DNA of 36,813 nucleotides from Patescibacteria group bacterium. Lineage in GTDB: Bacteria; Patescibacteriota; Patescibacteriia; JACQRZ01. Below the pieces are notes generated by a model. That model was not told the DNA's origin. It worked only from the letters and a program-made list of their open reading frames with translations, and searched no databases. Where the stretch lies: NCBI GenBank assembly GCA_038065255.1, contig JBBTRI010000025.1:1-36813 (forward strand). Reading direction: 5' to 3'. Positions 51 through 1,186 of this stretch are shown here, piece by piece. Each line of letters opens with the position of its first letter. Within the stretch, counting starts at the first letter, position 1. The position numbers and the translations under genes were made by a program.

Positions 51-138
51 CGGTGGGGGAGGGATTCGAACCCTCGAGACCCTTGCGGGTCTAGCAGTTT
101 TCAAGACTGCTCGTTTCAGCCAGCTCACGCACCCCACC
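51..138 (-). tRNA. tRNA-Ser (anticodon UGA)
   Basis: A full class II tRNA folds on the minus strand. The acceptor stem is GGTGGGG paired with CCCCACC, with discriminator G73. The D stem is CGT/ACG with loop GAGCTGGCTGAA. The anticodon arm GCAGT-CTTGAAA-ACTGC gives anticodon TGA. The long variable arm AGACCC-GCAA-GGGTCT is typical of serine tRNAs, and the T arm is GAGGG-TTCGAAT-CCCTC. The 3' CCA is not encoded. It reads UCA and, by wobble, other UCN serine codons. The first base, position 138, directly follows the body of the endonuclease reading frame, which overlaps the first 48 nt of the tRNA. No strong promoter of its own is visible, so it may depend on transcription through the upstream ORF. 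Confidence 0.95.
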
Positions 139-1128
139 AACAAATGATTCGTATCTCTTCTTGTGTTTAGGATTATGCGTACCTATTAAAGTGAAGTAGC
201 GAATAATGTCATCGCGCCTTTCTAGAGTGACAGCCCGATTATTACGTATATTAGGAAAAAAATCAAGTTTTTTCAATGCTTTATGCACTGACACTCGAAG
301 TGGTTGCGAATAACTTACAAATGTTAATCTTGGATAACAATAGCGTTTCGTCTTTATTTTATGACATTCCTGAAAAATACAACCATCAGTATCCATAAGT
401 CCGCGAATGCACGCCAGTAAATAATCTTTATTTTTCTTGACCCAATCAGGCATGTCTATCTCTTGCTTTACCTTATTACCTATACAAAGCCCTAATGATA
501 CACAATAATGAACAAATTCCTTACTTGAAAACTGCAGGGTAATAGTAGACTTTTTACGATAATATACTGCGGGCTTCATTTGAAAAAGCTTCAATAAAAA
601 ATGATGTAAAAATTCACTATACTTCCTGTCAGCCTTATATCCCAAAGTAATTGTGGTTTGAAAAGGAGTAATCCCCCCATCACCAAGCATAATGCCAATA
701 AACTCTGCCAAATTTTCTGACTGTATTGGTTTATAAATTTTTCGTGGAAGTAAAATTTTATTTCTATGAAATGTCCCTATTTTATCCCACCATTCTTTCC
801 ATTTTTTCTTACGATATGCCTCATTGGAAATGAATCCGTATTTTCTATATTTGTTAATACCGCCAATCTTACCCGCTTTTGTACTAGACCAAAAAGATTC
901 TTTAATTTCAACAGGTCTTGGAAATGGCACTTTCCCAAGAAAACATGCTCGATGTACTATTTTTAGTGGTAAAGAATATTTTCCCCTTTTCCAATCTGAA
1001 TAAGTTCTTTTGTGTACTTTGAGTAATTGAGGAAGGTCAACTTGTGTCAACGAAAGCTTTGTTTCGATATTTTTGAGAAAATTAGCTTGTTTCCCCCTTG
1101 GGAAAATAACTCTTCTATCCTTTTTCAT
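91..1128 (-). CDS. LAGLIDADG homing endonuclease with N-terminal HTH-like region, reading into tRNA-Ser
   Basis: A 345-residue protein with two LAGLIDADG motifs, LAEFIGIMLGDG (140-151, acidic residue D150) and LACIRGLMDTDG (238-249, D248). This is the monomeric two-repeat form that cuts long asymmetric DNA sites. Residues 25-55 (LTQVDLPQLLKVHKRTYSDW) look like a helix-turn-helix, and residues 80-115 are basic and aromatic, probably a DNA-binding linker. The conserved body seems to end near KHKKRYESF (321-329). Codons 331-345 and the TAG stop are tRNA-Ser sequence read in frame. The gene is visibly richer in A+T than its neighbours, consistent with mobility. No group I intron core was recognised around it, and the tRNA is intact, so it looks free-standing rather than intron-encoded. 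The ATG at 1128 has no clear Shine-Dalgarno (SD) sequence. Confidence 0.85.
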   Translation of the reverse strand: MKKDRRVIFPRGKQANFLKNIETKLSLTQVDLPQLLKVHKRTYSDWKRGKYSLPLKIVHRACFLGKVPFPRPVEIKESFWSSTKAGKIGGINKYRKYGFISNEAYRKKKWKEWWDKIGTFHRNKILLPRKIYKPIQSENLAEFIGIMLGDGGITPFQTTITLGYKADRKYSEFLHHFLLKLFQMKPAVYYRKKSTITLQFSSKEFVHYCVSLGLCIGNKVKQEIDMPDWVKKNKDYLLACIRGLMDTDGCIFQECHKIKTKRYCYPRLTFVSYSQPLRVSVHKALKKLDFFPNIRNNRAVTLERRDDIIRYFTLIGTHNPKHKKRYESFVGGVRELAETSSLENC

Positions 1129-1186
1129 AAACTACTCTGTCATGCCACTATTACAACATAAAAAAAGTAATAACAAAATTAATCCT

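Follow-up and report, generated by a model that had tools for sequence, protein, structure and literature searches.

Why should the reading frame of a homing endonuclease end inside an intact tRNA gene? The question arises at one end of the window, by which we mean the whole 36,813-nucleotide (nt) stretch of Patescibacteria group bacterium DNA analyzed here. A LAGLIDADG homing-endonuclease-like ORF (HEG; positions 91 to 1128, minus strand; 345 amino acids) begins with an ATG at position 1128 and terminates within the tRNA-Ser(UGA) gene that is its 3' neighbor (51 to 138, minus strand). An earlier, sequence-only reading of this locus raised two possibilities: that tRNA maturation limits endonuclease synthesis and that the element targets tRNA-Ser and has inserted in a manner that keeps it whole.

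A LAGLIDADG reading frame that ends within tRNA-Ser(UGA)

The geometry of the junction, as first read from the letters, is confirmed. ORF coordinates, Rfam bounds, and acceptor pairing all place the first base of codon 331 (GGT, 138 to 136) on nt 1 of the tRNA, and the sole stop of the ORF is the TAG at 93 to 91 (minus strand), which corresponds to tRNA nt 46 to 48 and lies directly 3' of the anticodon stem. The ARAGORN call for the tRNA (139 to 50) is one base too wide at either end; the bounds of 138 to 51 derive from the match to Rfam RF00005 (51.9 bits) and from the seven acceptor pairs, GGTGGGG/CCCCACC. The predicted fold is that of a class II tRNA (−41.4 kcal/mol, z = −4.2). It is presumably essential, because this 1.09-Mb genome yielded four tRNA-Ser genes (UGA, CGA, GCU, and GGA), of which just one is a UGA gene.

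For all four of these tRNA-Ser genes, the contig ends at the 3' side of the tRNA or within about 130 nt of it (C25 start, C7 end, C9 end, and C20; positions 1 to 50 in the window; L095 and L103), and the contig of a relative considered below (G002) likewise ends 51 nt beyond its tRNA-Ser. Breaks in the assembly at tRNA 3' ends, or variation within the population, may underlie these contig ends.

The ORF product matches Pfam PF14528 at 25.8 bits (cutoff, 22.5) and contains two LAGLIDADG motifs. The first, LAEFIGIMLGDG, spans residues 140 to 151 (676 to 711, minus strand) and includes the catalytic-type Asp150; the second, LACIRGLMDTDG, spans residues 238 to 249 (382 to 417, minus strand) and includes Asp246 and Asp248. 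All three aspartates are invariant in alignments of 27 and 36 homologues. The AlphaFold2 model has a mean pLDDT of 90, and its top Foldseek match is I-Tsp061I (2dch; E = 1.2e-11), which is also the nearest solved relative by sequence. As modeled, the product is a double-motif LAGLIDADG homing endonuclease with a confident fold and a predicted capacity for cleavage. The N-terminal region is helical and weakly helix-turn-helix-like (HTH-like; E = 0.05). The C-terminal tail that is encoded by the tRNA (codons 331 to 345; 94 to 138, minus strand) is predicted to be disordered: it falls outside the confident fold, with a pLDDT of <50 over residues 334 to 345, and is without conservation among homologues. 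A domain search found no intein splicing domain in the ORF. Elsewhere in the same genome, a LAGLIDADG intein resides within a TraG/VirB4-type P-loop ATPase (L001, G000:C9).

Relatives are dedicated to tRNA-Ser and tRNA-Tyr genes

Querying genome contigs with the single protein recovered no relatives, and a family profile was needed; a scan of GTDB genomes with this profile returned at least 475. Among the best 80 of these, which were found by the protein profile alone with the tRNA not used as a criterion, 76 have a tRNA-Ser gene directly 3' on the same strand. The adjacency of HEG and tRNA is far beyond chance. Hosts of the best 80 are mostly Parcubacteria-type Patescibacteria, along with a few Omnitrophota, one Woesearchaeota, and one "Nitrospirae" bin. 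Within the GTDB family of the window, relatives occur in 5 of 11 genomes, each with a tRNA just 3'. One of them, from a Candidatus Uhrbacteria metagenome-assembled genome (MAG; G002, contig JACQRZ010000029), is 58% identical to the window HEG and has its stop 13 nt into tRNA-Ser(UGA), in another phase.

Surveys of the class and the phylum detected relatives in 18 of 381 and 22 of 380 genomes, respectively, and nearly all of the strong ones lie directly 5' of tRNA-Ser(UGA, GCU, GGA, or CGA) or tRNA-Tyr. Homologues beside other tRNA genes, which had been proposed as a check on the locus, thus exist. On a maximum-likelihood tree of 32 endonucleases, the associated isoacceptor changes five times, which is the minimum possible, versus 19.9 times with shuffled labels. 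Full support unites the GCU endonucleases in one group and the Tyr endonucleases in another, although the hosts come from many families. Sorting of clades by isoacceptor across host families is, on the strength of this tree, a signature of site-specific homing.

Viral contigs yielded 13 relatives, all weak (about 31% identity or less over any long stretch), and therefore no phage vehicle was found. A single strong relative, at a contig end, is convergent with its tRNA, a tRNA-Ser(GGA) (L051, G661). More distant LAGLIDADG ORFs lie 4 to 19 nt before tRNA-Gln(CUG) (L016, L056, and L057). At the first of these, a tRNA-Gln 5' fragment, TGCGGGATCGTCTAATGGTAGAT, lies upstream of the ORF, from which the arrangement may extend to tRNAs beyond Ser and Tyr.

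Stop position and reading phase vary among loci

Over 100 loci, the HEG stop precedes the tRNA in 59 and falls inside it in 41, and among these 41, phases 0, 1, and 2 are represented 24, 13, and 4 times. (Some of the matches used in this survey to measure how far the conserved Asn lies from the tRNA were mis-anchored, at distances above ~76 nt, and only the stop and phase counts are used.) Given this spread of phases and the variable position of the stop, a codon-boundary fusion as a conserved feature is rejected.

The same counts bear on the idea that RNase P, in processing the tRNA, removes the stop codon of the endonuclease message and so limits the level of endonuclease, with tRNA maturation and translation excluding each other on one transcript. 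The stop does lie inside the tRNA in the window and at the other loci of this type, and the two genes share an orientation and are not separated by a terminator; but an ordinary stop before the tRNA is found in the majority of homologues, an outcome that the sequence-only reading had itself named as refuting, the stop and phase vary from locus to locus, and the tail contributed by the tRNA is the unconserved, disordered segment described above. As a conserved or selected device the limit is unsupported, and we regard it as quite improbable. What survives of the idea is its biochemical half: RNase P probably cuts any HEG-tRNA cotranscript at these loci, and this cutting appears to follow incidentally from the element's position. 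The overlap itself is the outcome expected where an ORF needs no stop of its own at the junction. Because a TATAAT of the gene's own precedes the start codon by about 6 nt in many relatives, control of endonuclease expression more probably resides at the 5' end.

The locus is empty in five relatives and holds a broken copy in another

Comparison of tRNA-Ser(UGA) loci with and without the upstream ORF, in genomes sampled at one per species, shows a stand-alone HEG that is present or absent at a single locus. A DUF218 gene forms its conserved left flank by neighborhood comparison (1187 to 1837 in the window, minus strand). In five relatives from the same family (G003, G004, G005, G008, and G010), the interval from DUF218 to tRNA-Ser(UGA) contains no HEG and measures 41, 12, 136, 15, and 68 nt, respectively; in the genome of the window (G000) and in G006, that interval is precisely where the HEG is found. 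The G006 copy (L005/L013) is broken in its N-terminal part and its tRNA is intact, which is consistent with decay after invasion.

Strict linkage to a tRNA, together with the weakly HTH-like N-terminal region, could instead denote a domesticated HEG that now regulates its tRNA or takes part in processing it. The patchy distribution in the class and phylum surveys fits a mobile nuclease, as do the broken copy in G006 and the conserved catalytic Asp pairs, making domestication exceedingly unlikely.

A displaced 5' piece of tRNA-Ser lies at the start of the ORF

The tRNA is represented on the other side of the HEG as well. A tRNA-Ser 5' fragment (nt 1 to ~22) occurs upstream of the HEG and often spans its start codon. 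In the window, this fragment, GGCATGACAGAGTAGTTTATG (1126 to 1146, minus strand), matches tRNA nt 4 to 24 and includes the ORF start codon; it is short and decayed (P = 0.020 on its own), and fragments at the homologous place occur in G002 (P = 0.033) and G006 (P = 0.017). Scored against the 5' halves of HEG-free tRNA-Ser, the fragment reaches a P value of ≤0.05 in 11 of 30 loci, with no significant fragment in about 19; the combined probability over all 30 is 1e-8 (Fisher), and scores exceed those of control windows (Mann-Whitney test, P = 7e-8). In the GCU clade, the consensus TATAAT-GGAGAT-ATGGCTGAATCGTTTAAA matches tRNA-Ser nt 1 to 24 and is read as a 5' leader plus MAESF. There, 13.2 of 24 positions are identical in register versus 6.1 elsewhere, and 31 of 44 loci score above the best of 70 other offsets. 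The ORF therefore starts within a tRNA fragment and terminates in, or at the edge of, a second tRNA sequence, and the 5' part of the tRNA flanks the HEG on both sides, as a fragment upstream and within the full tRNA downstream. In sequence, the displaced fragments resemble HEG-free tRNAs more than they do the restored tRNA of the same locus (P = 0.004 to 0.009).

A TATAAT-like box (≤1 mismatch) ends 5 to 9 nt before the start codon at 43 of 69 loci versus 6.6 expected, and its position suggests that it serves as the element's own near-leaderless promoter. The window has a weak −10-like hexamer, TGTAAT (1150 to 1155, minus strand), just upstream of the displaced fragment where relatives have TATAAT. 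By analogy with I-TevI, the displaced fragment at this promoter could act as an operator. At the other end of the ORF, where a hidden promoter for the tRNA was sought, the sigma70-like score of the HEG 3' end is 8.65 versus 8.36 for synonymous-codon shuffles (P = 7e-6), and the −10 box alone is not above these shuffles (P = 0.11).

A tRNA piece preceding the HEG is also what would be seen if a degenerate or misread group I intron in the D-loop carried the endonuclease, and LAGLIDADG genes are common in CPR rRNA introns (PMC11270868, PMC7143001). Group I introns in tRNA genes of Patescibacteria are the subject of a preprint cited in PMC12641178. The downstream tRNA is, however, complete from nt 1, and therefore no splicing is needed; just a few dozen noncoding nucleotides flank the ORF, and group I and group II intron models have no match in the window even at an E value of ≤10, nor in ten relatives at the gathering threshold. 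An intron-encoded HEG is accordingly disfavored, and we consider it very unlikely.

The restored tRNA differs in its D-arm

Compared within isoacceptors, HEG-bearing and HEG-free tRNA-Ser differ over nt 8 to 26 (0.396 versus 0.296; P = 0.0002), with no difference in the acceptor strand (P = 0.30) or from nt 27 to the end (P = 0.16). The altered segment corresponds to the D-arm, which in the window occupies linear nt 8 to 28 (111 to 131, minus strand). At equal sample sizes, the diversity of D-arm classes in tRNA-Ser(GCU) is 16.2 with the HEG and 9 without it (P = 0.0015). These tRNAs retain their pairing: the acceptor stem is intact in 29 of 29 HEG-bearing tRNA-Ser, and 24 of these have a complete three-pair D-stem.

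With isoacceptor removed, HEG distance correlates with D-arm distance (Mantel test, P = 0.002), and likewise with distance over the acceptor strand (P = 0.001) and over the rest of the tRNA (P = 0.03); because other parts of the tRNA correlate too, this test of whether the D-arm travels with the HEG is confounded by host relatedness.

These patterns are best explained by a site-specific homing element, consisting of little beyond the LAGLIDADG gene, that splits tRNA-Ser in the D-arm and rebuilds it with a 5' half of its own, an account that we consider probable, with cleavage and mobility deduced from the arrangement of the sequences. The enzyme would cleave tRNA-Ser genes that lack the HEG, within or beside the D-arm, the predicted site being near tRNA nt 20 to 26, and repair from a HEG-bearing copy would then insert the gene by way of short homology arms, the 5' fragment on the left and the tRNA body on the right. 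The 3' end of the element would bring a replacement tRNA 5' half, comprising the acceptor strand and a recoded D-arm, and the displaced 5' piece (about nt 1 to 22) supplies the start region of the ORF. With the replacement half carried in, the essential tRNA would therefore be functional without splicing and no longer cut. Because the ORF ends where the restored tRNA begins, the tRNA often provides the stop codon of the ORF, the window being an example. Of what the sequence-only reading put forward, the proposal that the element targets tRNA-Ser and keeps it whole is thus the part with strong support, in the form of empty sites, displaced 5' fragments, isoacceptor-specific clades, and an altered D-arm.

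Another history would have the HEG enter just 5' of an intact tRNA gene and bring with it a short duplicate of the tRNA 5' end, with selection later changing the D-arm to escape cleavage and no replacement half being involved. Alteration of the D-arm alone accords with this, as does the correlation of the HEG, the D-arm, and the rest of the tRNA with host relatedness, and tRNA 5' duplications with hairpins occur also without a HEG (L035, L093, and L135). Against it, the displaced fragment resembles HEG-free tRNAs more closely than it does the tRNA that follows it; moreover, the sequence upstream runs on unbroken into the fragment, and similar D-arms recur with related HEGs across families (L025 and L049; L021 and L022). 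We therefore judge later escape to be unlikely.

Candidate scars of lost elements

Several of the unusual D-arms are frequent among tRNA-Ser genes that lack a HEG as well, and therefore replacement of the 5' half by a homing element needs an added assumption, namely, past invasions. One pair of genomes from the same family bears on such a history. In G221, the order is upstream gene, fragment, HEG, and tRNA-Ser(GGA) with the D-arm TCGGATAACGGTTATTCC. In G255, the equivalent upstream gene (76% identity over 104 amino acids) is followed by a 5' fragment matching that of G221, no HEG, and a tRNA whose D-arm, TCGGATAATGGTTATTCC, is of the unusual kind shared with G221. By sequence comparison, it is as if G255 had lost the HEG and retained its repair.

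HEG-free tRNA-Ser genes with tRNA-Ser 5' fragments 14 to 60 nt upstream occur at L137 (G037), L085 (G147), L165 (G255), and L065 (G001), and some of these fragments are interrupted by short palindromes. Such loci are candidate scars of lost HEGs. In G004, a hairpin-containing element of ~115 bp lies 5' of tRNA-Ser(CGA) and of tRNA-Ser(GCU) (L093 and L135), flanked by two copies of ACCGAGTAAT plus tRNA-Ser nt 1 to 18, and a similar hairpin element lies 5' of tRNA-Ser(UGA) in G005 (L035). These are possibly a small non-autonomous element that uses the same D-loop site without a HEG.

We give an even chance to the broader reading that the family constitutes a natural "recode-and-rescue" homing drive, mostly of Patescibacteria, that cuts tRNA-Ser or tRNA-Tyr in the D-arm, inserts, and rebuilds the gene with a cut-resistant 5' half, with repeated invasion and loss leaving resistant D-arm scars.

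Relation to known systems

The arrangement points to a homing strategy that uses neither intron nor intein, in which the target, here a tRNA gene, would be rescued by gene sequence that the element carries in. Full-text literature searches found no earlier description of this HEG-tRNA arrangement. Its scale is considerable, extending over hundreds of genomes, mostly of the uncultured and ultra-small Patescibacteria and occasionally of other phyla. The elements would be natural examples of the cut-plus-recoded-rescue design of engineered homing drives. If true, this would offer a cause for the odd and unusually diverse tRNA-Ser D-arms of these bacteria, and the family would be a source of hundreds of endonucleases with predicted isoacceptor-specific targets.

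Integrative elements that target tRNA genes carry a copy of the part of the tRNA that is lost, usually the 3' half, and use site-specific recombinases. The tRNA-Ser element would likewise enter a tRNA gene and keep the tRNA functional by means of a carried copy; it differs in pairing a homing endonuclease with a 5' half. LAGLIDADG genes are also known in CPR rRNA insertions (PMC11270868, PMC7143001), and these, like the archaeal I-Tsp061I (PDB 2dch), belong to the same nuclease superfamily as the element described here. They are described as intron encoded or situated in rRNA insertions, whereas the tRNA-Ser element has no intron and its target is a tRNA gene.

Among phages, T4 SegB (in a tRNA region), SegF, and MobE are free-standing homing endonucleases that practice intronless homing, and the operator of I-TevI resembles its homing site (PMC2988022). 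The tRNA-Ser element shares with such free-standing HEGs a stand-alone gene beside its presumed target, a putative endonuclease-specific promoter, and possible control by an operator resembling the homing site, as described for I-TevI. SegB is a GIY-YIG enzyme whose gene is flanked by tRNA genes and whose target is intergenic DNA of the tRNA region; the tRNA-Ser element, in contrast, encodes a LAGLIDADG enzyme, is joined at both of its ends to tRNA sequence, and is spread through cellular genomes.

The closest logic is that of the mobile ORFs (mORFs) of fungal mitochondria, which sit in atp6, atp9, cox2, and nad3 (Allomyces macrogynus and Glomus sp.; PMC3630166). An mORF combines a LAGLIDADG or GIY-YIG gene with a replacement gene end, thereby forming a hybrid functional gene and displacing the native end beyond the ORF, and this displaced end resembles HEG-free relatives (PMC3630166). 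The tRNA-Ser element would likewise be an endonuclease gene that enters an essential gene and brings a replacement for a gene end; mORFs do so at the C terminus of mitochondrial protein genes, and the tRNA-Ser element would do so at the 5' half of bacterial tRNA genes. The order of the latter (displaced 5' piece, HEG, restored gene) is thus the mirror image of that of an mORF, and, unlike mORFs, the tRNA-Ser element belongs to a large family sorted by tRNA isoacceptor.
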